From Alphaproteobacteria bacterium (GTDB taxonomy: Bacteria > Pseudomonadota > Alphaproteobacteria > TMED109), in assembly GCA_022825235.1 (NCBI GenBank), contig JAJDYI010000007.1:1-64000 (forward strand): a stretch of DNA of 64,000 nucleotides, read 5' to 3'. This document shows positions 4,398 through 60,875 of the stretch, one piece after another. A program made the position numbers and the translations under genes. Positions within the stretch are counted from its first letter, which is position 1; every line of letters begins with the position of its first letter. The notes beneath the pieces were generated by a model. The model was given only the letters and a program-made list of their open reading frames with translations, was not told the DNA's origin and ran no database searches.

Positions 4398-5051
4398 CTA
4401 GTAGATGCTGGTGCGGTACAGGCCCTTCATGATGCCCTGTATCTGAAGCTGGCCCGGGTGCACCACGATCGGTTCCATGTCCTTGTTTTCGGGCACGAGC
4501 TCGATGGAGTCGGCTCGCGGCCGGAACCGCTTCAGCGTGGCTTCGCGACCGTCGATAAAGGCGATGACAATCTGCCCGTTTTCGGCGGTCTGCTGGCGCC
4601 GGAAGATCCCCATGTCTCCGTCGAGGATTCCGGCGTCGATCATCGAGTCCCCCTGGATCTTCAGCGCGAAGTGCTCGCCGCTGCCGACACCCAGATTCAT
4701 CGTGGGAGGAACCTTGATGAACGATTCGTGCTGGATGGCCTCGATCGGCGTACCGGCGGCGATCGTCCCGAAGTAGGGGAGGTCGATCAGGGTTCCCCAC
4801 TGGCCGGAGCTGCTGCTCTCGACCGTCGCCGCGGCTTCCTCGGGCTTGCGCACGACCCGGATGGCGCGGGCTCGGTTCGGCAGGCGTTCGACGAAGCCAC
4901 GTTCCACCAGCGAGGTGAGATGGCGGTAGATGCCGGATTTCGACTTGAGCCCGAGGGCGTTCTTCATATCCTCGAACGAGGGGGAGATTCCGGTCTCCTC
5001 GATCCGCTTGTTGAGGTAGACGAGGAGTTCGTGCTGTTTTCGAGTAAGCAT
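4398..5051 (-). CDS. lexA: SOS repressor LexA
   Basis: The transcriptional repressor of the SOS response, 217 residues. It has an N-terminal winged helix (residues 1-70), the self-cleavage bond A99-G100 in the IAAGTP segment, and the serine-lysine dyad S136 (in QGDSM) and K174 (in ATLKRF) of the S24 peptidase domain. It is set in the common alphaproteobacterial neighbourhood moaC-moeA-lexA-gltX. It has its own promoter in the gap after moeA, with a repeated GAAC element over the -10, which points to autoregulation. Confidence 0.97.
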
Positions 5052-5088
5052 GCAGGGAACCCAATGTGGCTGCGGCCCATGCCTCTAT

Positions 5089-5117
5089 GTTCTACTTTGT
5101 TCGCTACAAGAAGTCAA
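5089..5117 (-). promoter_or_regulatory. lexA promoter with overlapping LexA-like operator
   Basis: Read on the minus strand, TTGACT (5117-5112) and TAGAAC (5094-5089) are spaced by 17 bases and make a good sigma-70 promoter about 38 bases before the lexA start. Two direct GAAC repeats (5102-5099 and 5092-5089) lie in the spacer and over the -10. The alphaproteobacterial LexA box is two GAAC/GTTC half-sites spaced by 7 bases; here the spacing is 6. The position is what autorepression would need, so I infer an operator, with the spacing as the main doubt. Confidence 0.6.
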
Positions 5118-5172
5118 TGTGACCACGTTGCGTCCTCTCTGACGGGCGATCGGGTTCGGAATTTGCGGGTGC

Positions 5173-6390
5173 TTATAGACCGCCGGCAGCCGACGGGAAG
5201 AGGAGCGCGGTCACGGGCGTGCCGGCGGGGGCCGCGGGCGCGTGCGGTGGTCGGATGACCAGGCAATCGGCCCGGGCGAGCAGCGATAGCACGGAACTGT
5301 CCTGAAGTTCAAACGGATGCACCGTCATGACGCCGTCGGGATCTCGGCTGGCTGCCGCCCGGAGGTAATCCTCGCGACGGTCATTCTCCGGCAAGTCGCA
5401 GCCGAGTACCGCCTGTGCCGACGCGGGACCCGGGTCGAGCCCCTGCATGGCCCGTAACGCGGGCAGAAGAAACACCAGGGCGCAGACGAACGTGGATACG
5501 GGATTCCCGGGGAAGCCGAGGACCGGGGGTCCGCCCGGCAGCGTTCCGAACAGCAGCGGTTTGCCGGGGCGCATGGCGATTTTCCAGAAGTGCCGGGTCA
5601 ATCCGGCCTCCTCGAGTGCCCGCCCGACGAGGTCGTAGGCGCCGACCGACACGCCGCCGGTCGTCACCAGCAGGTCGAACGCCCGCACGCCGTCGACGGC
5701 GGCCCGCAGCGCGGCCGGATCGTCCGGCACCAGAGACAGGTCGACTGCATCGCCGCCCACGGCCCGGATCATCGATTCGAGTGCGAAGGTGTTCGACGAG
5801 ACGATCTGGCCGGAGCGTCGGGCCTCGCCCGGCAGGACGATTTCGTCGCCGGTCGCGAGCAGCGCGATCCGCGGACGCCGCCGGACGCTGAGCCAGGGCC
5901 AGTCGGCGGCGGCGGACAGGCCGATGTCTCGGGCCGTCAGCACGCTTCCGGCTGCCACGAGGGCGTCGCCTGAACGGAAATCGATCCCGCGGTCGCGGAC
6001 GTGTTTGCCGACCGGGGCCCCGGCCAGGACGCGGATCCGGCCATCGTCCCGGGGTTCCGTGTTTTCCTGGATGACGACACTGTCGGTACCGGCGGGCAGC
6101 GGGGCGCCGGTGAAGATCCGGACGGCATCGCCGATCCGGGCGGTCCCGTCGAAGGGTCGTCCGGCCGGCGCCTCGCCGATGACGGCCAGGTCGCAGGGCG
6201 TTGCCGCCACGTCGGCGGCCCGCACGGCGTAACCATCCATGGCCGATACGGCCGACGGCGGCTGGTCGGTACGTGCGGTGACGTCGGCGGCCAGCACCCG
6301 ACCCAGTGCCTCCGACAGGGCGATCCGCTCCGTCGCCAGCAGGGGCATGGCCTCCAGGATCTGCCGGCGGGCGTCCGCAACCGGGATCAT
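5173..6390 (-). CDS. moeA: Molybdopterin molybdenumtransferase MoeA
   Basis: MoeA inserts molybdate into adenylylated molybdopterin, the last general step of molybdenum cofactor synthesis. The 405-residue protein has the conserved MDGYA (about 51-55), FTGAPLP, LATGDE and [11 protein letters not shown] motifs, then the GFPGNPVS segment. The start is ATG at 6390, overlapping the moaC stop as ATGA; upstream in-frame codons lie inside moaC. It is the last gene of the ppiD-trpEGDC-moaC-moeA run. A second MoeA-type gene lies at 22.3 kb; this copy keeps the full motifs and is the likely housekeeping one. Confidence 0.95.
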
Positions 6391-6866
6391 GGGGCGTGGA
6401 AGGTCCCCGACTTGCCGCCGGCCTTGTGGAGGAGACGGACGCTGCCGATCTGCATCGCGCGATCGACCGCCTTGCACATGTCGTAGACCGTGAGCGCCGC
6501 GACGCTGGCGGCCGTCAGCGCTTCCATCTCCACGCCGGTCCTGCCGGAGGTGGTGCAGGTCGCCTGGACGTCGACCGCCGCGTCGTCGTCATTACAGACC
6601 AACTCCACCGCCACCGAATCGAGCGGCAGGGGGTGGCACAGCGGGATCAGTTCGTGCGTGCGCTTGGCCGCCATGATGCCGGCAACCCGCGCGACGCCGA
6701 GGACATCGCCCTTCTGATGTCCGCCGTCCAGGATCATCTGCAGGGTGGTCGGCGACATGGTGACCCGCGCCGCCGCGGTGGCGGTGCGGCGGGTGACGGG
6801 CTTGGCGCCCACGTCCACCATCCGGGCGTGTCCGGACGGGTCCAGGTGCGTGAAGCGCTCGCTCAT
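6387..6866 (-). CDS. moaC: Cyclic pyranopterin monophosphate synthase MoaC
   Basis: MoaC works with MoaA to convert GTP into cyclic pyranopterin monophosphate, the first step of molybdenum cofactor synthesis. It has 159 residues, normal for the family, with [26 protein letters not shown] and the C-terminal KAGGKSG motif. Start and stop both form ATGA overlaps with trpC and moeA, so translation is coupled. Its placement directly after trpC is typical of alphaproteobacteria. Confidence 0.97.
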
Positions 6867-7669
6867 GCCGCGCCTGCCCGCTGGTTCAGCAGGGTTCGGA
6901 CGGCGGCCGTGACGTCGGCGTTCCGCATCAGCGTTTCTCCAACCAGGAATCGGCGGACCCCGCAGTCGGCCAGGCGGCGGAGGTCCGCCGGTCCGCCGAG
7001 GCCGCTCTCCGCCACCAGATCGCGCCCGGCCGGTGCCCGGGCCGCCAGGCGTTCGGTGGTCGCAAGGTCGACCGCGAACGTGCGGAGGTTGCGATTGTTG
7101 ATCCCGACCAGGTCCGGATCCAGGGCCTCCGCACGCTCAAGTTCGCGCTCGTCGTGCACCTCGGCCAGGACGTCCATTCCGAGCGCCTTCGCATCCGCCG
7201 CCAGCACCCGTGCGTGCGAATCCGTCAGGGCCGCCAGTATCAACAGTACACAGTCCGCGCCGAGCGAGCGGGCTTCCAGGATCTGGTACCGCTCCAGCAT
7301 GAAGTCCTTGCGGAGCATCGGGACCGGTGCGGCCGCGCGCGCGGCCCGGAGGTGGGCATCGGCGCCCTCGAAGAAGGGTTCGTCCGTCAGCACCGAGATA
7401 CAGGCGGCTCCGCCCCGGTGCAAAGCGCGGGCCAGTACCGCGGGGTCGAAATCGTCCCGCAGGCGGCCCTTGGAGGGGCTGGCCCGCTTGATCTCGGCGA
7501 TGAGCCCGTAGGCGTCGGACGCGACCGACCGGCGGAGCGCCGCCGCGAAACCACGGGGGGGATCCTGGTCGGCCACCTGCCGCTCCAGCTCGGCCTCCGG
7601 CACCGCGTTGCGCCGGGCGGCCACGTGGGTGCGCTTCGTCTCGAGGATGGCGCGTAACCGGTCGTTCAT
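6863..7669 (-). CDS. trpC: Indole-3-glycerol phosphate synthase
   Basis: TrpC closes the ring of carboxyphenylamino-deoxyribulose phosphate to indole-3-glycerol phosphate in tryptophan synthesis. It is a single-domain TIM barrel of 268 residues, not fused to TrpF. The beta-1 segment [13 protein letters not shown] carries the catalytic lysine, and the phosphate-binding LVGETLM region is near the end. I chose ATG at 7669, which overlaps the trpD stop by four bases, rather than an in-frame start 18 bases upstream inside trpD. Confidence 0.96.
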
Positions 7670-8694
7670 GCGGACCCCTGCGTGCATGCGACCAGCCGCT
7701 CGAGCGCGGCGCCTGCCGCGCCGGTATCGATCGACCGGGCGGCGAGCGCAGCGCCTTCCCTGAGATCGCCGGCCTGCCCGGCAACGACCAGCGCGGCTGC
7801 CGCGTTCAGCAGCACGATATCGCGGTACGGGCCCGGTGCACCGTCCAGCAGCTGCCGGATGCTGGCCGCGTTCGCCGCGGCATCACCGCCGACCAGGTCT
7901 TCGGGCGAGGCCCTCGCGAGGCCGGCATCCTCGGGGGATACCCTGAACGTGCGCACCCGACCGTCCCTGAGTTCGGCGACGCTGGATTCACCGGTGAGCG
8001 TGAGCTCGTCCATGCCGTCCATGCCGTGCACGATCCAGGCATGCTCGGAGCCCAGTTCCCGGAGCACCTCGGCCAGGGGCGTCAGCCAGCGCGTGGCGAA
8101 CACGCCGATCACCTGGCGTCGCACGGCTGCCGGATTGGCGAGCGGTCCCAGCAGGTTGAAGACCGTGCGCAACCCGAGATCGGCCCGCACGGGCCCGACG
8201 TGTCGCATGGCCGGGTGGTAGATCGTGGCCATCAGAAAGCCGACCCCGGCCGTCCGCATGGCTTCCTCGACCGCCGCGACGGGCGCGGCCACGTCGACCC
8301 CGAGGGCGCCCAGTACGTCGGAGGATCCGGACTTGGACGAGACCGCCCGGTTGCCGTGCTTGGCGACCGGCACGCCGCAGCCCGCGACCACGAGGGCTGC
8401 GGCGGTCGAGACGTTGACGGTGCCCAGCCCGTCGCCCCCGGTGCCGCAGGTGTCGATGGCGTCGGGCGGGGCACTGACGGGCGTGGCCTTCGCCCGCATG
8501 GCCCGGGCAGCCCCGGCGATCTCGTCCACCCGCTCCGTACGGACCCGCAACGCCATCAGGAACGCGGCCGTCTGGGCCGGGCTGGCCGCTCCTTCCATCA
8601 GGAGCGAGAACGCGTGCTGCGCCTGCTCGCGGTCGAGCACGCCGCCGTCGGCGACCCGTGCGAGGACGTCGCGAAACTCCGGCCCGTCGCTCAC
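7666..8694 (-). CDS. trpD: Anthranilate phosphoribosyltransferase
   Basis: TrpD transfers phosphoribosyl from PRPP to anthranilate. It has 342 residues; the PRPP-binding DTCGTGGDG motif, the NVSTAAALV stretch and [13 protein letters not shown] are all present, as is the family's usual N-terminal helical domain. It starts with GTG at 8694, overlapping the trpG TGA as GTGA. It lies third in trpE-trpG-trpD-trpC. Confidence 0.96.
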
Positions 8695-16494: not shown

Positions 16495-17783
16495 TGACGG
16501 CGACAGCCCTGCGCGCGCTACGGGCGCGCGAGATCTTGGACAGCCGGGGCCACCCGACGGTGGCGGTGGAAGTCACCCTCGAGGCGGGCGCCCGGGCGCA
16601 GGCCGCGGTTCCGTCCGGCGCCTCCACCGGCGCCCACGAGGCGCACGAACGGCGCGATGGGGATCCGGGCCGGTACCGTGGCCGCGGGGTCCTTACCGCG
16701 GTGGCCGCCGTCGAGGGGGAAATCCAGGACGCGGTGCTCGGCCTCGACGCGATGGACCAGCGCGCCCTCGACGACGCGCTCATTACGCTCGACGGCACCC
16801 CGGACAAATCGCGCCTCGGTGCCAACGCGCTGCTGGGGGTCAGCCTGGCCGCGGCGCGGGCGGCATCCAGGTCCCGGAACATCCCGCTCTACCGGCATCT
16901 GGGCGGCCTCGGTGCGCGGACCCTGCCGACGCCGCTCATGAACCTGCTGAACGGTGGCGTCCACGCGCGGAACGGCCTGGATGTGCAGGAGTTCATGATC
17001 GTCCCGGGCGGGGCGTCGACGTTCGCCGAGGCCGTGCGGTGGGGGTCCGAGATCTTCCATGCGCTGGCCGACCTGCTGGGCGAGGCCGGGCACGACACCG
17101 GGCTCGGGGACGAAGGCGGCTTTGCGCCGGCCCTCGAGGGCACCGACGCCGCCATCGGGTGCCTGCTGCAGGCGATCGAACGGGCGGGCTACCGGCCGGG
17201 CGAGGAGGTCGGGATCGCCCTCGACGCGGCGGCCGGCGAGCTGCTGAAGGACGGGCGGTACCGGCTCGCCGGCGAGGACCGCACGCTGGACGCGGCGGAA
17301 CTGGCGGCGTACTGGACCGCCCTGCTCGACCGGCATCCGATCGTGTCGATCGAAGACCCGTTCGGCGACGATGACTGGAGCGCCTGGCAGGACTTCACCG
17401 CCGCCGCGGGGAAGCGGCTCCAGATCGTCGGAGACGACCTGTTCGTCACGAACGTCGGTCGCCTCGAGCAGGGGATCGAGGGCGGAGCCGCCAACGCCCT
17501 GCTGGCGAAGGTCAACCAGGTAGGAACGCTGAGCGAAGCACTGGATGCAATGCACCGGGCGGCTGCAGCGGGCTTCGGCGTGATCGCGTCGCACCGCTCG
17601 GGGGAGACTGAGGACACGACGATCGCGGATTTGGCGGTCGGTACGGGGTGCGGGCAGATCAAGACCGGATCCCTGGCGCGCGGCGAACGCACGGCAAAGT
17701 ACAACCGGCTCCTGGCGGTCGCGGACGAGCTGGGTGCTGGTGCCAGGTACGCAGGCTGGCAGGCGCTGCGGCCCGGGCGCTGA
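16491..17783 (+). CDS. eno: Enolase
   Basis: Enolase interconverts 2-phosphoglycerate and phosphoenolpyruvate. It has 430 residues. Family landmarks are [11 protein letters not shown], the flexible loop [19 protein letters not shown], the metal ligands in LDAAAGE, IEDPF and VGDDLFVTN, and SHRSGETED with the KTGS segment. The product also serves the neighbouring KdsA as substrate. ATG at 16491 overlaps the kdsA stop (ATGA). In most alphaproteobacteria ftsB and pyruvate dehydrogenase genes follow; here a DUF4396 gene does. Confidence 0.96.
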
Positions 17784-18236: not shown

Positions 18237-18256
18237 CGGGCTGGCCTGTTGTACCC

Positions 18257-18281
18257 GCCGGACGCCCTCCGGTCGTCCGGC
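18257..18281. terminator. Hairpin between convergent DUF4396 and TorD-like genes
   Basis: A perfect 8-base inverted repeat, GCCGGACG and CGTCCGGC, with a 9-base loop, lies in the 55-base gap between two convergent genes. There is no T-run on either side, so it is not a textbook intrinsic terminator. The location suggests it stops or stabilises transcripts from one or both sides. Confidence 0.4.
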
Positions 18282-18291
18282 ACCCGTGACG

Positions 18292-18921
18292 TCAGTCGAC
18301 CGGAGCGATCTGCTCGAAAGCGCGCTGCTCGGTTTCGAGAAAGGTGCCGCCGGCGGCACCTACCGCCCGGTAGAAGACGGCCTCCTGGTGCTCGACGAGA
18401 TCCCGGAAGAGGGCCGGGATCCAGGTCCAGACGTGCCGCGAGAAGAAGTTCTTTTGCGACGGCAGGGATACCGGCGGTCCGAAGGTGCCGACAATCAGCC
18501 CGGCCATCGTCTCGAGGATCGCGGCCGCATGGTCCTCGGGATCGCCGGTCGTCCGGGCGCCGCGGATCCCGAGGTCGCGGAAAGTGCGCCGGAGTTCTGC
18601 CAGCGGTTTCTCGTACAGGAATCCGGTCAGGTAGTAGGACTGGTACGGGTTGATGCCCGCTTCCCCCAGGCCGAGAAAAAGATCGTCGTACTCGTGGCGG
18701 ACGGCTTCGCGCGTCATCGTGCGGGCGCACCCGCCCAGCTCGCCGAGCGCCCCCAGCAGGGCCACCTCGCCGGCGCCCTCGAGCGCGGCGGCCGTCGCCA
18801 GCAGATCCGCTGTCGGGGGCGCGTGGAGAAGTCCGGAAAACAGCAGGTAGCACTGGGCGCGCGAGCGATCCTCGATATCCAGTGAGGATGGGGTACCGCC
18901 GCCGGATGCGTTCGCGCTCAA
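18292..18921 (-). CDS. TorD/DmsD-family molybdoenzyme maturation chaperone
   Basis: A 209-residue all-helical cytoplasmic chaperone of the TorD superfamily. Such proteins bind the Tat signal and apoenzyme of a molybdoenzyme until cofactor insertion is complete. Support comes from the REAVRHEYDDLFLGLG segment (the family's E(Y)xxLF motif), the NPYQSYYL stretch, and a histidine-bearing helix near DPEDHAA. It is the last gene of a DUF3305-DUF3306-TorD run with four-base overlaps, an arrangement known from formate dehydrogenase loci. Its client is most likely the FdhA at 57.3 kb; the exported IorB-type enzyme is an alternative. Confidence 0.85.
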   Translation of the reverse strand: MSANASGGGTPSSLDIEDRSRAQCYLLFSGLLHAPPTADLLATAAALEGAGEVALLGALGELGGCARTMTREAVRHEYDDLFLGLGEAGINPYQSYYLTGFLYEKPLAELRRTFRDLGIRGARTTGDPEDHAAAILETMAGLIVGTFGPPVSLPSQKNFFSRHVWTWIPALFRDLVEHQEAVFYRAVGAAGGTFLETEQRAFEQIAPVD

Positions 18922-19415
18922 GCCGGTTTCTCCGGCGCATCCTGGTCATCGGCCGCCGTGTCTGCGGTCTCGCCACCGTCCCTGGAGGCGTCCGGAGCGG
19001 GACCGTCCGCCTCGGTCGGGTCGGGGCCGGGCGGGGCAGCCGGTTCCCGGGCATAGCGGCGGCCGGCCCGGACGGCCGCGGCGATCGCCTCGGCGCCGGT
19101 CTTGTGGAGCGAGGCGAAGTCCTCGTCGTAGTCGTTCAGCCCGTCGAGGTTGGCGAGCACCGGGTCGCTCCGCCACAGCCGCCGGAGCGCCAGGCGGCGC
19201 AGGGCCGGCGCGACCGTCCGCTGCAGGAACGGACGGTAGTCGGATTCGGCCCCCAGCTCTTCCACGTCGGGCAGGTCGGGGGGTTCGGGCACGTTCATGC
19301 CCTGGATGCTGTCCGCGGTCGTTGGGACGGAGGCGGCGGGGGAGCCGTCGTCGTCGTGCGCGGGGGGCCGGGCGGCCCTGGCCCGTTTCGACCATCGGGC
19401 AAGGAAGCCGCTCAT
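18918..19415 (-). CDS. DUF3306 family protein (formate dehydrogenase accessory locus)
   Basis: A 165-residue protein that starts MSGFLARWSKRA, the usual opening of DUF3306, and has the conserved LRRLALRRLWRSDPVL and LDGLNDYDEDF motifs followed by a disordered acidic tail. It has no transmembrane helix or signal. DUF3306 proteins occur almost only beside DUF3305 and formate dehydrogenase genes, and their exact role is not known. The start at 19415 overlaps the DUF3305 stop (ATGA); an upstream in-frame extension lies inside that gene. Confidence 0.88.
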   Translation of the reverse strand: MSGFLARWSKRARAARPPAHDDDGSPAASVPTTADSIQGMNVPEPPDLPDVEELGAESDYRPFLQRTVAPALRRLALRRLWRSDPVLANLDGLNDYDEDFASLHKTGAEAIAAAVRAGRRYAREPAAPPGPDPTEADGPAPDASRDGGETADTAADDQDAPEKPA

Positions 19416-19864
19416 CGGGGCGCCCGCGGCGGCCGGGCGAAGGATTCGGGCGAAGGCCTGGGCTGGCGCGCCCGTTTCCGGAATGGCTCCTCGACGTGAT
19501 GGCGACGCACGAATGCGGTCACCCATGCGGCGATGGAGTCGGGCATGGCCACGGCGTCGACGCGCGAATCGGCATCGTCAGCGTAATCCTGTGCCTCGAA
19601 CGGGCACACCGTGGCCAGGAACGGCTCCGACAGGACCCCGTCTCGATCCGGCCTCAGGATCACGTACACGGCTCGCGCGCTGGCGAGATTCGTGCGGTAC
19701 CCTTCGGTTTCCTTGCGGTGAAGCTCCAGTACGAGCTCCGGGTATCCCGCGTTGGCCGGCGTGAATTCGGGGGTCACCGCCACGGCCTGACAGACGGCGG
19801 AAGCCCATCGTCCGGAATCTTCCGTACGCTCGAGCATCACTCGCACCGGTAACCGGGTCCGCAT
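19412..19864 (-). CDS. DUF3305 family protein (formate dehydrogenase accessory locus)
   Basis: A 150-residue soluble protein. It carries the DUF3305 pattern: a start with LPVRVMLER, an ELHRKETEGYRTNL segment, VYVILRP, a VCPFEAQDY motif, and a basic tail beginning with FRKRAR. Its function is unknown, but the association with DUF3306 and FDH is strong. It is the promoter-proximal gene of the minus-strand trio and is divergent from the ferredoxin-type gene, with about 250 bases between them for two promoters. Confidence 0.88.
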   Translation of the reverse strand: MRTRLPVRVMLERTEDSGRWASAVCQAVAVTPEFTPANAGYPELVLELHRKETEGYRTNLASARAVYVILRPDRDGVLSEPFLATVCPFEAQDYADDADSRVDAVAMPDSIAAWVTAFVRRHHVEEPFRKRARQPRPSPESFARPPRAPR

Positions 19865-20114
19865 GCCGGGTCTCCCGCTGGCTCCCGAGAAGACACCATA
19901 TTAGGCGGTGGCGGTGCTCCGTGCGGTTCAGCATCCGCGGCAGAACCGTCGCGCTGCCCCACCGGCGCCGCGTCAGCGTGGGGTCGCACCGGGCGTGGAG
20001 GTGGTGACGGCACCGCGGCTGCGAGTGCGCCGGGGGTCATGACCGACCACCGGACGGCAAACTCGCGCTAAGCTGTCGAGCAGCCGTTTCCGCGTGGTTG
20101 GAGAGGTACCGGCC

Positions 20115-21824
20115 GTGGTGGCAGCGACCCGTTCGCCCCTGGACGCCGCGCTGCGCGCGTGGACGCAGGAACCCGCACCATCGGGGCGGGCGCTGGAGGT
20201 TCGCGGGCGCGGCCGGGTGCTGGTCATGGGCGCCGCTGCCGACGCATTGCCGGCGGGGCATGCGCTTGCCGCGGGGAATTCCGTCACGGTCCTGGCGGTC
20301 GACGGGACGCCGGCAGGCATCGAGGAAGCAGGGGAGATCCCGTTTCCCGTCGTGGCGGACCGGCCGGCACGCCTCCAGGGCCATTTCGGGGCCTGGAGCT
20401 TGACGCTCCGGGACGGTGAAGTGCTGGAAGCGGATGCGGTCCTCGATCTCACCCGCGCTCCAACGGCAATTCAGGCACCGGAGCTCCGGCAGGGGTACGA
20501 GCGTTGCGACCCGCGCAACCCGAGGGCGCTGACAGCCGCGTTGGCTGCGGTCGCGAACTGCCGGGGGGCATTCGAGCATCCGCTGTACGTCGACGTGCGG
20601 AGCGAGTACTGCGCGCACGCGCGAAGCCGGATCCAGGGCTGCACGCGCTGTCTCGACCTGTGCCCGCCTGGCGCGCTGGCTCCCGCGGGCGATCATGTCG
20701 CACTCGACCCGCTCGTCTGTGCGGGCTGCGGGCTCTGCACGGCTGCTTGTCCGACGGGAACGCTCCGCTACGACCTCCCCGCCGAGGAGGCGTCGCTGCG
20801 GCGGCTGCGGGCAGCGTTGCAGGCGTGGAACGGTGCGGCCAGCGATGCCCCGTTCCTCCTCCTTTACGGCGACGGTTTTGGCGCCGAACTGGTGGAGGCA
20901 ACACGGCAGCTGGGGGATGGAGTCCCGTCCGGATGGTTGCCGATCTCGTTGGGGGTCGCGTCGCAAACCGGCGCCGACGTGCTCGCGATGGCGCTGGCGT
21001 GGGGAGCGGCATACGTCGTGTGCGTCAGCAATCCGGCCCGCCCGGACACGCACCGCCCGATCGAAGACCAGATCGCGGTCGTGAACGCAATTACCGAAGC
21101 CCTCGGGTTCGGTGCCCGGGTCGCGCAGGTGGCGACGGCCGATCCCGATGCCCTGCTCGCGAAGATGCAGACCGTGGAAAGCACGGCAGACTGGCCGGTT
21201 GCCGAGTTCCTGCCGCTCGGCGAGCGGCGCGCCGGCGCGCTGCAGGCCATCCGCCACTTGCACGCGAACGCACCGCGCCCTCCCGACACCATCGTTCTGC
21301 CGAAGGATGCACCGTTCGGAGCCGTCGCCGTGGACCAGGATGCCTGCACCCTGTGCCTGGCTTGTGTCGGGGCCTGTCCGACCGGCGCGCTGCAGGCTGA
21401 CCCCGACACCCCCCGGCTGGGGTTTCAGGAAGATGCGTGCGTCCAGTGCGGACTGTGTCGCGCGACCTGCCCGGAGCAGGCGATCACGCTGCATCCGCGG
21501 CTGCAACCGGCGCTCGCTCCCGGGGCGCGCCGCACGCTGCACGAAGAGCAGCCGTTTGCATGCGTGTCGTGCGGCAAGCCGTTCGGCGTGCGCCAGTCTA
21601 TCGAACGCACGCTGGAACGGCTGGCCGGCCATCCGATGCTGGCGGCCGACCCCCGCCTGGCACGTCGTGTGAAGATGTGTGCTGACTGCCGGGTCATCGA
21701 CCAGTTCCAAGACGCCTCTGCGGCCGGTGACCGCCCGCGTCCCAGGGTCCGGACCGCCGACGACTATCGGCGCGGGCCGGACGCGGTGGAGGGTGGCAAG
21801 CGTTCGAATGGCGGGCGGAAGTGA
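20115..21824 (+). CDS. Multi-cluster 4Fe-4S ferredoxin-type protein of the FDH accessory locus
   Basis: A 569-residue soluble iron-sulfur protein. Two tandem 4Fe-4S motifs lie at about residues 175 and 201 (CTRCLDLCPPGA, CAGCGLCTAACP) and two more at about 411 and 442 (CTLCLACVGACP, CVQCGLCRATCP). CxxC pairs follow at about 482 and 522. Between the ferredoxin pairs is a roughly 200-residue globular domain with no cysteine motif. It likely passes electrons in formate metabolism or in maturation of the enzyme; it is typically found with DUF3305/3306, MobB and MoeA. I chose GTG at 20115 because GGAGAGG lies 8 bases upstream; GTG at 20094 is an alternative. Confidence 0.85.
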   Translation: MVAATRSPLDAALRAWTQEPAPSGRALEVRGRGRVLVMGAAADALPAGHALAAGNSVTVLAVDGTPAGIEEAGEIPFPVVADRPARLQGHFGAWSLTLRDGEVLEADAVLDLTRAPTAIQAPELRQGYERCDPRNPRALTAALAAVANCRGAFEHPLYVDVRSEYCAHARSRIQGCTRCLDLCPPGALAPAGDHVALDPLVCAGCGLCTAACPTGTLRYDLPAEEASLRRLRAALQAWNGAASDAPFLLLYGDGFGAELVEATRQLGDGVPSGWLPISLGVASQTGADVLAMALAWGAAYVVCVSNPARPDTHRPIEDQIAVVNAITEALGFGARVAQVATADPDALLAKMQTVESTADWPVAEFLPLGERRAGALQAIRHLHANAPRPPDTIVLPKDAPFGAVAVDQDACTLCLACVGACPTGALQADPDTPRLGFQEDACVQCGLCRATCPEQAITLHPRLQPALAPGARRTLHEEQPFACVSCGKPFGVRQSIERTLERLAGHPMLAADPRLARRVKMCADCRVIDQFQDASAAGDRPRPRVRTADDYRRGPDAVEGGKRSNGGRK

Positions 21825-22330
21825 TCCCTCGGATCGGCATCGTGGGATGGCAGGGAAGCGGCAAGACATCCCTGATCACCCGCATCATTCCCGAACTCGG
21901 TCGCCGCGGCCATACCGTCTCGACGATGAAGCACGCGCATGCGAGCTTCGAAATCGACCGACCCGGGAAGGACAGTTTCGTGCATCGTGAGGCGGGCGCG
22001 CACGAGGTGCTCGTGGCCTCCGGGCAGCGCTGGGCACTGATCCACGAGGAGCGTGATGTCGACCGGACCCCCGAACGGTTGATCGCCCGCATGGAACCGG
22101 TCGACGTCCTGCTCATCGAAGGCTGGAAGGGCGGCGCCCACAAGAAGATCGAGGTGCACCGCCCGGCGCTGCGGCGCCCCCTCCTCGCGACCGACGATCC
22201 CCAGGTCGTGGCGATTGCTGCCGATGCGCCCGTTCCAGGGTGCGGACGGCCAGTCCTCCCCCTCAATGACGAATCGGCCGTCGTCGACTTCGTGCTGGCT
22301 GAACTCGGCCTGTCGAACCGTGCAGCTTAA
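21821..22330 (+). CDS. mobB: Molybdopterin-guanine dinucleotide biosynthesis adaptor MobB
   Basis: A 169-residue P-loop GTPase with GWQGSGKT at about 9-16, the MKHAHAS segment, and a Walker B-like VDVLLIEGWK. MobB assists MobA in making bis-MGD, the cofactor form used by formate dehydrogenases. The start is GTG, overlapping the ferredoxin-type gene as GTGA. The stop lies inside the next gene, a second moeA, so the pair forms a molybdenum cofactor unit dedicated to this locus. Confidence 0.94.
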   Translation: MIPRIGIVGWQGSGKTSLITRIIPELGRRGHTVSTMKHAHASFEIDRPGKDSFVHREAGAHEVLVASGQRWALIHEERDVDRTPERLIARMEPVDVLLIEGWKGGAHKKIEVHRPALRRPLLATDDPQVVAIAADAPVPGCGRPVLPLNDESAVVDFVLAELGLSNRAA

Positions 22331-23570
22331 GGACGATTGCTTCGCGTTCGGCGGTGAGCTGATCCCGGTGGCGGAGGCCCATGCCGAGCTGGGCCGCCGC
22401 CTGCAGGTATGCACGCGGTCGGTCGACGTGCCGGTCGGCTCCTCGTCCGGTCGGGTTCTTGCCGACGACGTCGTCAGCGATCGTGACGTGCCGCCGCATG
22501 CGAACACAGCCGTTGACGGTTATGCATTCCGGTTCAGCGACCTGGGCGAGACGGCTGATGGCTGGCTGAAGTTGGTCGGAAGCGCGGGGGCCGGGCACCC
22601 CTGGGTGGGCGAACTGCCTCCCGGGGCTGCCGTGCGGGTGCTGACCGGGGCCGTCCTGCCGGCGGCCGCAGATACCGTGGTGATGGAGGAGGACGCCGAC
22701 CTCCGGGGCCAGCGCGTGTTCGTGCCGGCCGGGCTGAAACGAGGGGCTAATGCGCGCTCCGCCGGCGAGGACCTCCAGGCCGGGGCGGCGGTGCTGCGCG
22801 CGGGCCGGCGCCTGGGCCCGGCGGAGGCGGGAGTCCTCGCGGCCCTCGGACGCACGTCGGTGAAGGTTCGCACGCGACTGCGGATCGCGGTCCTGTCGTC
22901 GGGCGATGAGCTCGCCGAGCCGGGCGGCGCACTCGGGACCGGCCAGGTCTACGACTCGAATCGGGCGATGCTGTGCGCGCTGGCCAGCGAAGCGGGGGCT
23001 GACGTCAGTGACCTCGGCATCATGGGAGATCGGGCCGAGGATGTGCGCGAGGCGTTCAGCCGGGCCGTCAGGCTTCACGACCTGCTCATCGTCTCCGGCG
23101 GGATGTCCGAGAGCGAGGAGGACCACGTGCGGCGCCTGCTGAACGACACCGGATCCCTCTATTTCTGGCGTCTGGCTGTCAAGCCGGGACGTCCTGTCGG
23201 CCTTGGACAATTCGCGGAGACACCGGTCGTGGGCCTTCCGGGCAATCCGGTCGCAGCTTTCGTGATGTTCCTCGTGGTCGCGCGGCCGGTGATCGCCCGT
23301 CTGGGGGGCGAGGACTGGACGTTTCCGTCCGGGGTGCCGGGAACCTGCGGGTTCACGTACCGGAAAAAGATCGGCCGCCGCGAGTTCCTGCGCGTGCGCC
23401 GGCACTCTGCAGAGCAGCCGGAAGTCCTCGAGCTGTTCCCCCGCGGGGGCGCCGGGATCCTTTCTTCGGTGGTATGGGCGGACGGGCTCGCAGTCCTGCC
23501 GGAGGATGTGGGCGAGGTACGTTTGGGCCAGCCGGTCAGCTGGATTCCATTCCGCGGGCTGCTGGATTGA
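22320..23570 (+). CDS. MoeA-type molybdopterin molybdenumtransferase, second copy
   Basis: A 416-residue MoeA paralogue. It shares the fold markers TAVDGYAF (usually MDGYA), LTGAVLP, LSSGDELAEP and GLPGNPVAAF with the copy at 5.2 kb. The TSGGVSVG-xxD motif near the active site reads SGGMSESEEDH, so the two glycines around the loop are changed while the aspartate is kept. The start is GTG at 22320, giving an 11-base overlap with mobB; the longer open frame lies inside mobB. It could be a client-specific Mo insertase for FDH or have altered specificity; I cannot decide from sequence. Confidence 0.88.
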   Translation: MQLKDDCFAFGGELIPVAEAHAELGRRLQVCTRSVDVPVGSSSGRVLADDVVSDRDVPPHANTAVDGYAFRFSDLGETADGWLKLVGSAGAGHPWVGELPPGAAVRVLTGAVLPAAADTVVMEEDADLRGQRVFVPAGLKRGANARSAGEDLQAGAAVLRAGRRLGPAEAGVLAALGRTSVKVRTRLRIAVLSSGDELAEPGGALGTGQVYDSNRAMLCALASEAGADVSDLGIMGDRAEDVREAFSRAVRLHDLLIVSGGMSESEEDHVRRLLNDTGSLYFWRLAVKPGRPVGLGQFAETPVVGLPGNPVAAFVMFLVVARPVIARLGGEDWTFPSGVPGTCGFTYRKKIGRREFLRVRRHSAEQPEVLELFPRGGAGILSSVVWADGLAVLPEDVGEVRLGQPVSWIPFRGLLD

Positions 23571-23721: not shown

Positions 23722-24198
23722 CTAGAGAACCGGGCCGTTCACCACCACGGCTGCGCGCTTTTGCAGCGAGCGCGCGATCCGCTCGGCCGGGAAGCCTAGC
23801 TGCGAGAGTCCGATGCCGACATCGAACACTTCCGTGTAATCGGCAATCAACCTGCTGCGAAACCGAAACCGGCCCATGCCCTCCATGGTGACCCGGGTGC
23901 CGCGGGCGCCCGGCAGCAGCGAATCGAAGTGGAACCGGTACGTCCCGTACGCCAGGCCGTTTCCTTCGCAGAGTTCCTTGTACGTCCAGTCCAGGTTTTC
24001 CGAATGCGCGTGAAAGTGATCGTCGATCATGGCCGCGATCGCGGCGCGCCCGCAGAACGCCCCGTAGAAGCCGTCATGGTAGACGCCATCATCGGTGAAG
24101 AATTCCGCGAGCCTGCGGCCAGGGCCGACACAGGCGGCCTCGGTAAAGCGGCCGATGAAGTCGGCAAGGTCAAGAGGGTTGTCGGAGATCGGAGGCAT
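23722..24198 (-). CDS. SnoaL/NTF2-like fold protein
   Basis: A 158-residue soluble protein that looks like an NTF2-like (SnoaL or ketosteroid-isomerase fold) domain: an N-terminal helix, then the AEFFTDDGVYHDGFYGAFCG segment and an AIAAMIDDHFHAH helix, and finally the beta sheet region with YGTYRFHFDS and TMEGMGRFRFR. The histidines in YHDGF and HFHAH could line the pocket. Such proteins are often small isomerases, hydratases or uncharacterised. The start at 24198 (MPPISDN) has AGGGA just upstream. It is divergent from the iron importer. Confidence 0.72.
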   Translation of the reverse strand: MPPISDNPLDLADFIGRFTEAACVGPGRRLAEFFTDDGVYHDGFYGAFCGRAAIAAMIDDHFHAHSENLDWTYKELCEGNGLAYGTYRFHFDSLLPGARGTRVTMEGMGRFRFRSRLIADYTEVFDVGIGLSQLGFPAERIARSLQKRAAVVVNGPVL

Positions 24199-24355
24199 TG
24201 CAGTCCCTGTTGGCGGGCGCATCTCGGCACAGCCGTCTGAAGCACGAGGCTGGCTTGCTGATGGGCGCCGGATCAAGGCGTTGTCCGGCAGCATAGGTCG
24301 GCGGATTGGACTGTCCACGCGGCAGCAGCGGTTGCGGAAGCCGGGGACATGGGTT

Positions 24356-25423
24356 ATGAAGCTGCGAATGATTGTTACTTGCAAAATCTTCGCGATACGT
24401 GCCATGACCGCGGCGCCGGTCCTTGCGATGACCGTGTCCCTGCTCGTGCCGGCGAACGCGGTATTGGCGGAATCGGTCAACTTGTACTCCGCCCGAAAGG
24501 AAGCACTGGTCCGACCACTGCTGGATGCGTTCACGGAGGCTACCGGCACCGAGGTCAGGTTGGTGACGGCAAAGGGCGGCCAACTCCATCAGCGGTTGCT
24601 GGCCGAGGGAGAGAATTCGCCGGCGGACGTCCTCCTCACCGTGGATGCCGGCAATCTCTGGCGCGCAGCCGAAGCCGGACTGTTGCGGACGGTGAGCTCG
24701 CCGTACCTCGATGCCAACGTGCCGGAGACCTACCGTGACCCGGACGGTCGGTGGTACGGCCTCAGCCTCCGCGCACGCGCCATCGTGTATGCGGCCGAAC
24801 GGGTCAGCGACACGGACCTCGCCGACCACCTCGACGGGTACCTCGGGCTGGCTGATCCGGTCTGGCGCGGGCGGATCGCCGTCCGCTCCAGCAATTCGAT
24901 CTACAACCAGTCCCTGATCGCCGCGGTCATCGCGAACTACGGACCTGAGGTCGCCGAGCGGTGGGCGCACGGACTCGTGGAAAATTTCGCCCGACCTCCG
25001 AGCGGCGGTGACCGGGACCAAATCCGCGCGGTGGCGGCGGGCGAGGCCGATCTCTCGATCGTGAACAGCTACTACTACGCGGTGCTGCTCGGTTCCGACG
25101 ATGCGGACTGGTTGGCCGGCACGGCCATCTACTTTCCGGCTGACGCGCAGATGGGCGCCCATGTCAACGTCAGCGGGGCTGGCGTCGCCCAACACGCGCC
25201 GCATCCTGGTGCGGCGCTGGAACTCATCGAGTTTCTGGCCTCGCCGGAGGCGCAGTCGCTCTACGCGGAACTGAACCACGAGTTCCCGGTGCACCCCGAT
25301 GTGGGACCGAGCGGGGTCGTTGCGGAGTGGGGGAGTATCGCGACCGACGACATACCGGTCGTCCAGTTCGGCCGACTGAATCCCGATGCGGTGCGAATCG
25401 CTGATCGCGCGGGGTGGAACTAA
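24356..25423 (+). CDS. Ferric iron ABC transporter, periplasmic binding protein
   Basis: The substrate-binding protein of an FbpA/AfuA/FutA-type importer, 355 residues. A basic N-terminus and hydrophobic core ending in ANAVLA-ES form the signal peptide. The mature protein opens with VNLYSARKE, typical of this class, and has KGGQLHQRLLAEG and the tandem tyrosines NSYYYAVL that ligate Fe(III) in FbpA homologues. The start may instead be ATG at 24368, which gives a shorter n-region. It is followed after 4 bases by the permease. Confidence 0.9.
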   Translation: MKLRMIVTCKIFAIRAMTAAPVLAMTVSLLVPANAVLAESVNLYSARKEALVRPLLDAFTEATGTEVRLVTAKGGQLHQRLLAEGENSPADVLLTVDAGNLWRAAEAGLLRTVSSPYLDANVPETYRDPDGRWYGLSLRARAIVYAAERVSDTDLADHLDGYLGLADPVWRGRIAVRSSNSIYNQSLIAAVIANYGPEVAERWAHGLVENFARPPSGGDRDQIRAVAAGEADLSIVNSYYYAVLLGSDDADWLAGTAIYFPADAQMGAHVNVSGAGVAQHAPHPGAALELIEFLASPEAQSLYAELNHEFPVHPDVGPSGVVAEWGSIATDDIPVVQFGRLNPDAVRIADRAGWN

Positions 25424-25427
25424 GCGC

Positions 25428-27110
25428 ATGCGCCTGGCCAGAATCCGCCGCCTGGGCCATGCGGGACGGCGGATTCGGTCGCTGAACGGCTGGACCTGGA
25501 CAGCTTCCGGCGCGTCGCTCCTGCTGGTCGCGCCACTGTTGGTGGTCCTGTTCGGGGCGGCCGGCCCGGCCAACGATCTCTGGCCGCACCTGGTCGATAC
25601 GGTGCTCGCCGGGTACGTCGTCAATACCGTCGGCATCGCGTTCGGCGTGGCCGCGGGAACGGCGGTCCTCGGGGTCGGCACGGCATGGCTGATCGCCATG
25701 TGCGACTTCCCCGGTCGCTCGATGTTCGCCTGGGCGCTGATCCTGCCCCTTGCACTGCCCGGCTACGTAGCCGCTTTCGTCTACGGCGACCTGCTCGAGT
25801 TTGCCGGGCCGGTCCAGACCGCACTGCGCGACGGGTTCGGCTGGGTCAAGGACGACTACTGGTTTCCGGCGGTACGCTCGCCGCTGGGGGCAATCGCGGT
25901 GCTGTCGCTCGTGCTCTACCCCTACGTGTACCTCCTGGTGCAGACGGCGTTCGCGACGCAGTCGGCCACGCTGATCGAGACCGGCCGGCTGCTCGGGCGG
26001 GGTCCGCTCACGATCTTTCGGACCCTGGCCATTCCCCTGGCCCGGCCGGCGCTGGCCGCTGGCTGCGCGCTCGCAGTCATGGAGACGCTGAACGACATCG
26101 GGGTGGCCGAATTGTTCGGCATCGGAACCTTCACTACCGGCATCTACCGAGCCTGGTTCGGACTCGGGGATGTCGGTGCAGCCGCGCGGCTGGCGACAGT
26201 GCTGCTGCTGGTCGTGCTTGCCGTCCTCTGGGCGGAGCGGCGGCTTCGGCGAACCATCCGGTACCATCCCGAGAACGACCGAAGTCGGCCGGTGAGCCGG
26301 TATGCACTGCGCGGCCGCCGCTCGGTCCTGGCCATCGTCTGTTGTGCCCTTCCGGTTGGCCTGGGGTTCGCATTGCCGGCCGCCGTTCTGATCTGGTGGC
26401 ATGTTCGCGCCGGTGCCCCGGTCGACCCGGCATTTGTCGGAATAGTCTTCAATACCCTCGGCCTGGCGCTTGGCGCCACCGTGCTGACGGTGGGTATCGC
26501 GGGGCTCGTCGTGTTCGGTCTCCGCCTTGACCCGGCGATCGTGCGGCCGTTCGCCAGGACGGCGGGCGCGGGGTACGCGATCCCCGGCGTGGTCGTTGCG
26601 GTTGGCATCCTCGGCCTCTGCTCGCTGCTTGATCACGCACTCGATAGCGCGAGCCACGCCATGTTTGGCACTGGCACCGGACTGCTGTTGTCAGGATCCG
26701 TGGCTGTTCTCCTGTTTGCTTACGCAGTCCGCTTCCTGGCGGTATCGATGAACGCTCTGGAAAGCTCCTACCACCGAATACCAGGCAGCCTCGACGCCGC
26801 GGCCCGGACCCTCGGCGTGTTTCCACGCGGCATATTGCTGCGGGTGCACGTCCCGCTTCTGCGGAGCGGTGTTGCGACGGCCGCCGCGCTGGTCTTCGTC
26901 GAGGTCATGAAGGAGCTGCCCGCTACGTTGATCCTGCGGCCGTTCGACTTCAACACCCTTGCCGTCCGGGCGTTTGAAATGGCCGACGAGGAACGGATCG
27001 CCGATGCTGCCCTGCCGGCCCTTGCGATCGTTGCGGCCGGTCTACTCCCGCTGATCGTGTTGTCGCGCCGGTTTCGGCAGCCGCAGATCCGAGCCGAAGC
27101 CCCCTCGTGA
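25428..27110 (+). CDS. Ferric iron ABC transporter, fused permease
   Basis: A 560-residue inner-membrane permease made of two tandem six-helix BPD_transp_1 domains (about 40-290 and 310-550), the FbpB arrangement. Each half has an EAA-type loop for ATPase docking: GRLLGRGPLTIFRTLAIPLA in the first and AARTLGVFPRGILLRVHVPL in the second. The ending includes the conserved EVMKELPATLILRPFDF segment of iron permeases. The start at 25428 lies 4 bases after the binding protein stop. Confidence 0.92.
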   Translation: MRLARIRRLGHAGRRIRSLNGWTWTASGASLLLVAPLLVVLFGAAGPANDLWPHLVDTVLAGYVVNTVGIAFGVAAGTAVLGVGTAWLIAMCDFPGRSMFAWALILPLALPGYVAAFVYGDLLEFAGPVQTALRDGFGWVKDDYWFPAVRSPLGAIAVLSLVLYPYVYLLVQTAFATQSATLIETGRLLGRGPLTIFRTLAIPLARPALAAGCALAVMETLNDIGVAELFGIGTFTTGIYRAWFGLGDVGAAARLATVLLLVVLAVLWAERRLRRTIRYHPENDRSRPVSRYALRGRRSVLAIVCCALPVGLGFALPAAVLIWWHVRAGAPVDPAFVGIVFNTLGLALGATVLTVGIAGLVVFGLRLDPAIVRPFARTAGAGYAIPGVVVAVGILGLCSLLDHALDSASHAMFGTGTGLLLSGSVAVLLFAYAVRFLAVSMNALESSYHRIPGSLDAAARTLGVFPRGILLRVHVPLLRSGVATAAALVFVEVMKELPATLILRPFDFNTLAVRAFEMADEERIADAALPALAIVAAGLLPLIVLSRRFRQPQIRAEAPS

Positions 27111-27289
27111 CGGATGAATCCATCTGACCTGCCTCGGCGCGTCGGGGCAGGGCAGCCCGTCCTTCCCGAGGCCGCGGTGCTAACGATCTGCCGAGCATCC
27201 CGCCGAAATTGCCTGACCACGTGCAGCCATTGATTCTTGGGGCACCGGGATGCAATTGTCACTCGGTCGGAAGCGCGGAATTACCTCCG

Positions 27290-28342
27290 ATGACAAGCGG
27301 AACCAGGCGTGGCTTGGAAGTCAGGGGTCTGTCGGTGCGGTCGCAGACCGACGACCGGAACCTGATCGCGGATGTGTTCCTGGACGCACGCCACGGTGAA
27401 GTCCTGTGGATCGTGGGGCCGTCCGGAGCCGGCAAGACCACGCTGCTGCGGGCCATCGCCGGAATCGAGCACATTCACGGCGGCTCGATCGTCGTGGATG
27501 GCCGGGTCCTGGCAAACAGTGCCGTCGAGGTCCCGCCGGAGGAACGGCGGGTCGGGATGGTGTTCCAGAATGCTGCTCTGTTCCCGCATCTCAACGCTGC
27601 CGACAACGTGGCGTTCGGCCTGAACGGCGGCGCTCGCCTTGCGCGCACGTCACGGGCGCAGGAGTTGCTGGAGCGGGTCGAATTGGCCGGCGTTGCCGAT
27701 CGGCTTCCGCACACGCTGTCAGGCGGCGAGGCGCAGCGGGTGGCGCTGGCACGCGCGCTGGCCACCGACCCGGACGTCATGCTGCTCGACGAGCCGTTTT
27801 CGGGCCTTGATCCCCAGTTGCGCACCGATCTGGCGGCAGCGACCTGCCGCGTCCTGAGAGAATCCGGGACCGTCGCTGTGCTCGTTGGCCACAACCCGGA
27901 AGACGCGATGCGGTTCGCCGATCGGATCAGCGTGATGCAGGGCGGCACGGTCCTGCAACTCGGCACTCCGCACGAGATCTATGCCCACCCCGCTAATGCA
28001 TTTTGCGCCGGCATCCTGGGGCATGTGAATCGGTTTCCGGTGCAGGTGCACCGTGGCCGCGTGGAGACGCCGTTCGGACCGGTTGAGGCGCCAGGTCTTG
28101 CTGACGGCAGCGCGGCCGAACTTCTCATTCGTGAAGAGGGCCTGTTGCTGGGTGAGGGCACATTGGCCAGCGTCGGTAGCGTGCGCCTCCTCGGCGCGCT
28201 GGCGGTGGTCGAGATCAGGCCGTCCGGCGAGGAGATGATTTTCCACGCCCGCGTGCCTGCGGACGCCGCCCCGGCGCCGGGTTCGGAAGTCGGGATACGG
28301 CTCGATCCGGCGCGCGCTTTCGTGTTTCCGGTAGGCAGGTGA
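27290..28342 (+). CDS. Ferric iron ABC transporter, ATP-binding protein
   Basis: A 350-residue FbpC-type ATPase. Walker A is GPSGAGKTT, the Q-loop is in GMVFQNAALFP, the signature is LSGGEAQRVALARAL, Walker B is VMLLDEPFSGLD and the H-loop is in LVGHNPEDAMR. A C-terminal TOBE-like domain (about 235-350) follows. The start at 27290 (MTSGTRR) gives the usual N-terminus; the ribosome site is weak. It is separated from the permease by 179 bases, unusual for this set, so it may have its own promoter. Confidence 0.92.
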   Translation: MTSGTRRGLEVRGLSVRSQTDDRNLIADVFLDARHGEVLWIVGPSGAGKTTLLRAIAGIEHIHGGSIVVDGRVLANSAVEVPPEERRVGMVFQNAALFPHLNAADNVAFGLNGGARLARTSRAQELLERVELAGVADRLPHTLSGGEAQRVALARALATDPDVMLLDEPFSGLDPQLRTDLAAATCRVLRESGTVAVLVGHNPEDAMRFADRISVMQGGTVLQLGTPHEIYAHPANAFCAGILGHVNRFPVQVHRGRVETPFGPVEAPGLADGSAAELLIREEGLLLGEGTLASVGSVRLLGALAVVEIRPSGEEMIFHARVPADAAPAPGSEVGIRLDPARAFVFPVGR

Positions 28343-56474: not shown

Positions 56475-56496
56475 TCCCGCTTCTCTAGACACTCAC

Positions 56497-56531
56497 GGGG
56501 CGGCGGTCGCCTGACCGCCGCCCCTTTTTTT
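56497..56531 (+). terminator. Strong intrinsic terminator after iorAB
   Basis: A perfect 12-base stem, GGGGCGGCGGTC and GACCGCCGCCCC, with loop GCCT, is followed by seven Ts. It begins 22 bases after the iorB stop and is the clearest intrinsic terminator in the window. Confidence 0.97.
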
Positions 56532-57029
56532 GTGCTCGGTGTCTTGTGCGCTAAGGGCACCATCGCGCGTTGCTCGGTCGGTACCAGGTAAACCGGCCGC
56601 GTGCCCCGCTGGCAGAGCCTGGGCCCCGCGAACACGATTCCGTTCCGCTACCTGCAGTCGTTGCCGTGGCAGTAAACTCCCTCTGCGCCCCCAATCGGGC
56701 ACTGGGCACCATCCAGCGATGCCCGCCCCAATGTTGCAGCCCGGACGTGCGGAGATAATGAGGTGCAGACCCGGCGGATCGCGGGATGCAGCAGATCCGA
56801 TCGCCACCGCGTGCGTAAACGCTCACGGATTTGATCGCTTACTCGATCCATTCAGGCACCGTTGCAGCCACCGGGCATCGGGTTCCCCCTCCAGACCGAC
56901 CTGCTGAAGAGCGCATCGCGCGGGCGAGCCGACATTTCGCTGATTCGGCGATCCGCTGTTCCAGAAGACAGCCGCGCAATTGTGGCTTGGTACGGCTATG
57001 CTTCCCGGGTGGTAACGAAGGAGGAGCGT
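56532..57029. promoter_or_regulatory. Regulatory region upstream of the formate dehydrogenase operon
   Basis: This 498-base gap between the iorAB terminator and the first FDH gene is the only long non-coding stretch in the right half. It should hold the FDH promoter. GATAAT at 56754-56759 is a good -10, but no -35 fits at the right distance; I see no FNR box or sigma-54 site I would defend. Short frames within it have no ribosome site. A long 5' leader is possible. Confidence 0.45.
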
Positions 57030-57242
57030 ATGCCACTCCAATCGACCAATTCCGAGCAAAAGGCTCGTCGGCGGCGCGGCCTCAGTCGCCGCACCCTTTT
57101 CGCCGCTGCCGGTGCCACCGGTGCCGCCGGGCTGGCCGTCCGCCCCTCGGCCGCCGTCACGTCCCCAAAGCGCTCCAAACCACGTGCCGGTTACCGCGAG
57201 ACTGAGCACGTCCGCACGGTCTACCGGCTGGCGCGCTTCTAA
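57030..57242 (+). CDS. Formate dehydrogenase region Tat-target peptide
   Basis: A 70-residue protein of the small family found just before fdhA (formate dehydrogenase region TAT target). It has a twin-arginine signal LSRRTLFAAAG at about 18-28, a short hydrophobic part, and the conserved C-terminal GYRETEHVRTVYRLARF motif. GGAGG lies about 6 bases before the ATG. Its function is unknown; suggestions are an assembly factor or extra subunit of FDH. It is 32 bases before fdhA, so co-translated. Confidence 0.9.
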   Translation: MPLQSTNSEQKARRRRGLSRRTLFAAAGATGAAGLAVRPSAAVTSPKRSKPRAGYRETEHVRTVYRLARF

Positions 57243-57274
57243 CGACTCTCCTCGGGCTTACTGCAGGTGTCCTG

Positions 57275-60097: not shown

Positions 60098-60111
60098 GGA
60101 GGACCGTCACA

Positions 60112-60869: not shown

Positions 60870-60875
60870 TCGGCC

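Follow-up and report, generated by a model that had tools for sequence, protein, structure and literature searches.

We describe here an accessory gene set for an FDH3-type formate dehydrogenase (FDH) that stands apart from the genes of its enzyme in an uncultured alphaproteobacterium (assembly GCA_022825235.1, lineage TMED109). The DNA analysed, referred to below as the window, comprises positions 1 to 64,000 of contig JAJDYI010000007.1, the start of contig C85 in an assembly of 3.85 Mb in 87 contigs. The accessory island occupies 18292–23570 and the structural genes fdhX-fdhA-fdhB-fdhC lie at 57030–61964. Very probably this is a known FDH3 accessory set that was cut between torD and fdhX in the ancestor of the genus and that acts in trans. 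The six genes that an initial annotation had read at the island were all found there with Pfam (TorD-like, DUF3306, DUF3305, poly-4Fe4S, MobB and MoeA), and its figure of about 34 kb for the separation is correct, measured from the last base of moeA2 (23570) to the first of fdhX (57030). The DUF3305, DUF3306 and TorD-family members are above the cut-offs of PF11749, PF11748 and PF02613 respectively, and the enzyme is of the FDH3 class by a beta subunit over the NF038355 cut-off, an FdhA of the type of the solved 9vap_A and a cytochrome b anchor. The island is not contiguous with fdhX-A-B-C, the DUF3305 gene lying 40.7 kb from that of the FDH3 beta subunit. The structural half retains fdhX, fdhD and mobA, and therefore the split does not merely part helpers from enzyme but divides the maturation set itself: TorD, DUF3305/DUF3306, the poly-4Fe4S protein, MobB and MoeA2 are on one side, with FdhX, FdhD and MobA on the other.

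The layout of this cluster elsewhere was surveyed in 20-kb slices of FDH3 genomes of the class, searched with profiles built from the window proteins. Thirty-one genomes from outside the genus were counted with a single locus apiece; the count excludes the FDH-less genome G117 as well as the additional loci in G064 and G143. In all 31, torD adjoins fdhX on the same strand. Twenty-nine keep the full series DUF3305-DUF3306-torD-fdhX-fdhA; of the remaining two, G031 is interrupted by a contig break and G138 has DUF3305/DUF3306 displaced locally. The slices also held the poly-4Fe4S gene (24/31), fdhD (7/31) and moeA2 (3/31). In G180 all twelve genes of both window halves fall within one slice (L108), which shows that the halves belong to one set. 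The order was represented by 12 genomes, seven from the genus of the window (uncultured alphaproteobacteria) and five from other, sister genera. Both halves are present in all seven genus genomes and torD is apart from fdhX in each of them; the halves share a contig, 40–54 kb apart, in six and are on two contigs in G008. The pair fdhX-fdhA follows iorB in 7/7, and torD is followed by DUF4396 and then eno in the six genomes where this region is visible, the contig of G007 beginning at DUF3305. Because all seven genomes share it, the split is old and fixed: it predates the radiation of the genus and is not peculiar to the window genome. The initial annotation had named the same split in all relatives as an observation that would count against its reading; the split is indeed common to the genus but does not extend beyond it, as torD and fdhX are joined in 31/31 genomes outside.

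Further evidence comes from the present neighbourhood of the island. In the sister genera the order pyrG-kdsA-eno-pdhA-pdhB is kept in 5/5 genomes. In the window genome about 93 kb separate eno from ftsB-pdhA-pdhB-aceF-lpd-lipA, which is encoded on the other strand, and the pdh block is likewise on the opposite strand, 93–107 kb from eno, in the three genus genomes examined (the window genome, G009 and G011). As the eno-pdh order is intact in the sisters and disrupted in the genus, there is a rearrangement breakpoint at the present site of the island (eno | ftsB-pdhAB). The proposal that the FDH cluster was split by a rearrangement is thus borne out, both by a cut placed exactly at a torD|fdhX junction that is kept in 31/31 genomes outside the genus and by the disrupted eno-pdh order. 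If an inversion joined the torD side to eno, the reversed orientation of both the accessory block and the pdh block would be explained. Several observations nevertheless weigh against this account. The fdhX gene now follows iorAB and not ftsB, so a single inversion, which leaves that placement unexplained, is insufficient as a full explanation and at least one further rearrangement, or a separate move, has to be assumed. The junction stretches that were compared share no repeat of more than 12 bases, so that the mechanism was not seen; the matches of 11–12 bases are at the level of chance, and shared repeats were rejected as the cause. The backbone of the FdhA tree is unresolved for the genus (two long rows), and the tree was set aside both for dating the event and as a phylogenetic test of a common origin of the halves. 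Finally, what DUF3305, DUF3306 and the poly-4Fe4S protein do at the molecular level is drawn only from association. With regard to the enolase gene itself (16506–17783), five of the seven genus genomes carry a second enolase-like gene that is 43–45% identical to it.

The association of DUF3305 with FDH3 was assessed in 396 genomes of the phylum and 241 of the class; the two samples overlap and the genomes are related, so the counts are not independent trials. In the phylum sample DUF3305 occurs in 77/396 genomes and the FDH3 beta subunit in 77/396, and these are the identical 77 genomes. The corresponding numbers for the class are 34/241 and 33/241, with 33 in common, and the pattern covers many families. 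For 76 of these 77 genomes the nearest DUF3305 gene of the phylum sample is within 13 kb of that for FDH3 beta, the exception being the window genome. DUF3305 is therefore tied to FDH3, and this distribution makes it a strong candidate for an FDH3-specific maturation factor. The one class genome with DUF3305 in which no FDH3 beta was found, G117, is 98% complete; its locus (L099, G117:C3:99000-118999) carries DUF3306-DUF3305-mobA-fdhD with a divergent poly-4Fe4S gene, torD and FDH3 being absent from the slice, and may represent a remnant or another use of the set. Poly-4Fe4S genes were also seen at L138 (Pelagibius marinus), L146 and L152, where the flank examined contained neither DUF3305 nor structural genes of FDH3. 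Action in trans is not without precedent, since a second FDH3 locus with no DUF3305 close by occurs in each of G064, G143 and G413. Two of these second copies are L114 (G143:C27) and L115 (G064:C2), and that of G143 adjoins pyrG-kdsA.

The initial annotation had suggested as an alternative that the island serves several molybdoenzymes, including IorAB. A general maturation locus of this sort would fit with the presence of a single PF02613 chaperone in a genome where a BisC-type enzyme (C65) and a DmsABC-like complex (C51) accompany FDH3, and MobB and MoeA are general by nature. IorB-like genes (E ≤ 1e-60, with at most four candidates scored per genome) were found in 83 of the 241 class genomes, and DUF3305 is commoner in these (25/83) than in genomes without an IorB-like gene (9/158). 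This loose positive association may reflect larger genomes having both, and it does not amount to a dependence: 58/83 genomes with IorB lack DUF3305, and so do all four genomes (G165, G077, G174 and G243) that encode the closest IorB proteins outside the genus (48–55% identity), whereas DUF3305 hardly ever occurs without FDH3 (77/77 in the phylum and 33/34 in the class have it). The cofactors also differ, as IorAB is a xanthine-oxidase-type enzyme with a cytosine-dinucleotide cofactor and TorD and MobAB belong to the guanine-dinucleotide (dimethyl sulfoxide (DMSO) reductase) family. A role for the island in IorAB maturation is not supported by these data, and we regard a general molybdoenzyme locus as very unlikely. 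TorD, MobB and MoeA2 may, however, also serve the BisC-type and DmsABC-like (MopB) enzymes of this genome, for which the PF00384 matches of the five sister genomes include no counterpart. We also considered whether another complete FDH locus, with accessories of its own, might be the home of the island. The genome does encode an NAD-type FDH (C5; L155, G000:C5:6000-18000), made up of a fused NuoE/NuoF-like subunit and FdhA, but FdhD has no match in the genome other than the one at the FDH3 locus, and this candidate was rejected. Four of the five sister-genus genomes have a single fdhD match, situated a few kb away from a PF00384 gene whose size class is that seen in NAD-type FDH.

Another possibility is that the halves were never one cluster in this lineage and that the accessory block and the structural operon were gained separately at two places. 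All five genomes of the sister genera, which belong to the same family, are without DUF3305 and without an FDH3 beta over the cut-off, so the genus could have gained both, and the FdhA tree cannot place the genus. However, the sister genomes are small (1.5–1.7 Mb), which makes loss as easy as gain, and together the two blocks make up exactly one cluster, with the edge at torD|fdhX; the accessory block moreover retains the divergent poly-4Fe4S/DUF3305 arrangement of other alphaproteobacteria and a rearrangement breakpoint can be demonstrated beside it. On this evidence separate acquisition is unlikely. The genus assemblies are all fragmented (40–130 contigs) and five are labelled as metagenome-assembled genomes, which might suggest that the split arose in assembly or binning; yet the same order is found within one contig in six genus genomes that differ in sequence (their poly-4Fe4S proteins are 72–90% identical to that of the window), and the chance of such an artefact is close to negligible. 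The explanation that we favour therefore remains the cutting of an FDH3 accessory set in the genus ancestor.

The kind of cluster is already known and the layout here is a variant of it, since PMC4464133 describes dmsD-fdhGHI loci, 60% of which have DUF3305 and DUF3306; a separate TorDfdh clade and an 'fdh tat' gene are described there as well. The proteobacterial FDH3 cluster (NF038355; the torD/dmsD-fdhGHI loci of PMC4464133) has the same families, the divergent poly-4Fe4S and DUF3305 genes and the order fdhX-fdhA-fdhB-fdhC. The window differs from it in the cut at torD|fdhX and in the inversion of the accessory block about 34 kb away, and also in that mobB-moeA2 is joined to the poly-4Fe4S gene, as in G180, moeA2 being near FDH in just the three class loci counted above. 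We propose that a rearrangement in the genus ancestor cut the cluster between torD and fdhX, and that the accessory block would thereby have come to lie inverted some 34 kb from fdhX-A-B-C-(channel)-fdhD-mobA. Judging from the families to which they belong, MoeA2 (molybdenum insertion) and MobA/MobB (guanylation) would make the bis-molybdopterin guanine dinucleotide cofactor and FdhD would supply sulfur; the TorD-like chaperone would hold and proofread apo-FdhA ahead of export by the twin-arginine translocation (Tat) pathway. DUF3305 and DUF3306 would be FDH3-specific cytoplasmic assembly factors, and the poly-4Fe4S protein may give electrons or serve as a scaffold. All of these helpers are predicted to be soluble and to act in trans, in which case the distance would cost co-transcription only.

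Within the island, the leftward unit consists of torD, DUF3306 and DUF3305, the stops and starts of which overlap. The torD-like gene (18292–18921, minus strand; PF02613, E 3.9e-22) encodes a chaperone of the NarJ/TorD family and has a TTG start that overlaps the DUF3306 stop. It is the sole PF02613 match in the genome; with 51.4 bits against a cut-off of 132 for the NCBIfam TorD equivalog it is not TorD in the strict sense but stays in the wider PF02613 family, and none of the chaperone models for TorD, DmsD and DMSO-type-II enzymes scores it above its cut-off. The DUF3306 gene (18918–19415, minus; PF11748, E 9.4e-20) is shorter than its longest open reading frame (ORF), a correction to the gene list, and starts from an ATG at 19415 that overlaps the stop of DUF3305 in the bases ATGA. 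The DUF3305 gene follows at 19412–19864 (minus; PF11749, E 7.6e-27). A gap at 19865–20093 between the divergent DUF3305 and poly-4Fe4S genes is, from the strands, presumably a divergent promoter region. The rightward unit, also of overlapping genes, consists of the gene for the 576-amino-acid poly-4Fe4S protein with multiple Fer4 modules in Pfam (20094–21824, plus), mobB (21821–22330, plus; PF03205, E 1.1e-44, and TIGR00176 above its cut-off) and moeA2 (22320–23570, plus; probable GTG start). The moeA2 product has PF03453, PF00994 and PF03454 (MoeA_N, MoCF and MoeA_C) and thus domains I–IV of a MoeA molybdotransferase; in the MoeA tree it clusters with the FDH-linked MoeA of G180, G168 and G039 and is a paralogue distinct from the MoeA at 5173–6477. 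That first MoeA is beside moaC, and it is assigned as MoeA from its sequence as read and because it pairs with G114 in the same tree. Where FDH-linked MoeA2 proteins of other families have SGGVSTGxEDHV, those of the genus have SGGMSESEEDHV. In G114 a whole FDH3 cluster (L092, G114:C42) is located between lexA and moeA-moaC-trpCD, the same neighbourhood as window positions 4398–8694. At the left edge of the island, the junction DUF4396|torD (18237–18291) is where a canonical cluster would run on into fdhX, and DUF4396 stands between torD and eno. The accessory proteins diverge faster than the enzyme within the genus, with identities of 54–83% for DUF3306 and 69–91% for TorD against 93–98% for FdhA (five other genus genomes compared with the window). 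FdhE was ruled out as a member of the set, as the genome has no PF04216 match. Apart from a tRNA, an Rfam scan found nothing in the window, which discounted a riboswitch for molybdenum cofactor or another structured RNA at the island.

The structural model of the poly-4Fe4S protein has a mean confidence (pLDDT) of 85, and along its length it resembles HdrA in the N-terminal half, MvhD in the middle and the HycF ferredoxin in the C-terminal part. Residues 28–230 match HdrA of the methanogen heterodisulfide reductase complex (8rvy_A; VIA Z 12.6, root mean square deviation (rmsd) 3.3 over 195 aligned residues; Foldseek E 4.4e-09) and residues 248–373 match MvhD (5odh_D; VIA Z 12.5, rmsd 3.3, 126 aligned), the fold match covering most of each domain; for HycF the VIA Z was 10.7. 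The flavin adenine dinucleotide site and the cluster ligands of MvhD were not recovered in 26 aligned sequences, which have no canonical dinucleotide-binding glycines and no invariant cysteine in the MvhD-like middle. Invariant cysteines are present elsewhere in the alignment, and the protein carries an extra CxxC...CxxC pair. Unlike HdrA and MvhD of methanogens, its gene sits with a periplasmic FDH, and we hypothesize from the model that it may be a cytoplasmic electron-transfer scaffold for assembly. The DUF3305 model (pLDDT 84.8) had no clear match in the PDB, with nothing below E 0.31 in the profile search, a best Foldseek E of 0.075 and a best VIA Z of 2.3; no solved relative was thus identified, and we neither claim nor exclude a fold for it. 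DUF3305 of the window aligns, under the cut-off, to an NCBIfam MobA model with a DUF3305 domain, and mobA directly adjoins DUF3305 in G117 and is next to it in several other loci, which gives a hint that DUF3305 may work close to cofactor delivery.

The structural half begins with the junction iorB|fdhX (56475–57029), in which a GC-rich hairpin with a T run stands directly 3' of iorB, followed by a leader ahead of fdhX; because of this hairpin, read-through from iorAB into fdhX is improbable. The fdhX gene (57030–57242, plus) encodes a small Tat-signal protein with a TIGR02811 match (E 2.4e-08) that at 34.1 bits lies under the cut-off of 48.45, but its position, length and Tat signal fit and it is beside fdhA in 6/6 other genus genomes. 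The catalytic subunit gene fdhA (57275–60097, plus; PF00384, PF04879 and PF01568) specifies a Tat signal, and its product matches the solved FdhA 9vap_A over residues 9–940 with a phmmer score of 1379.7 bits, the next best match being 328.2 bits. It is followed by fdhB for the FDH3 beta subunit (60112–60702, plus; NF038355, 344.6 bits, cut-off 240) and fdhC for the cytochrome b gamma subunit or membrane anchor (60876–61964, plus; TIGR01583, 151.6 bits, cut-off 115.85). In the genus an ion-channel protein (PF00520; window positions 62175–63104) is encoded between fdhC and fdhD. The fdhD gene (PF02634, plus) occupies 63610–64000 in the window and continues past its edge to 64536, with mobA after it at about 64533–65171 of C85 (PF12804 on the ORF). 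The order fdhX-A-B-C ... fdhD-mobA is repeated in the six other genus genomes. Several neighbour-gene names used for the window come from reading the sequence. As to what separates the halves, the housekeeping genes and tatABC that had been reported between them are present (TatABC, serS, rpsB-lpxB-gltA). The reported iron importer is an ABC importer (24095–28342, between the island and tatABC) for which iron is plausible as substrate but was not borne out: the NCBIfam matches of its binding protein and permease are all under the cut-off, the best of them being of aminoethylphosphonate and thiamine types.

A bolder interpretation is that DUF3305, DUF3306 and the HdrA/MvhD-like poly-4Fe4S protein form a dedicated and previously undescribed cytoplasmic FDH3 assembly machine, in which a redox scaffold would deliver electrons (or clusters) during cofactor insertion into, or sulfuration of, apo-FdhA. 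We consider this possible but doubtful; if true, the split in the genus would be a natural experiment that parts assembly from catalysis and gives each half its own control. In itself the split is a peculiarity of gene order in one genus, and the census of DUF3305 and FDH3 is a useful by-product of its study. DUF3305 is a family without assigned function, and the census makes a role in FDH3 maturation directly testable; as a candidate maturation factor, DUF3305 may be of interest to those producing complex formate dehydrogenases in other hosts.

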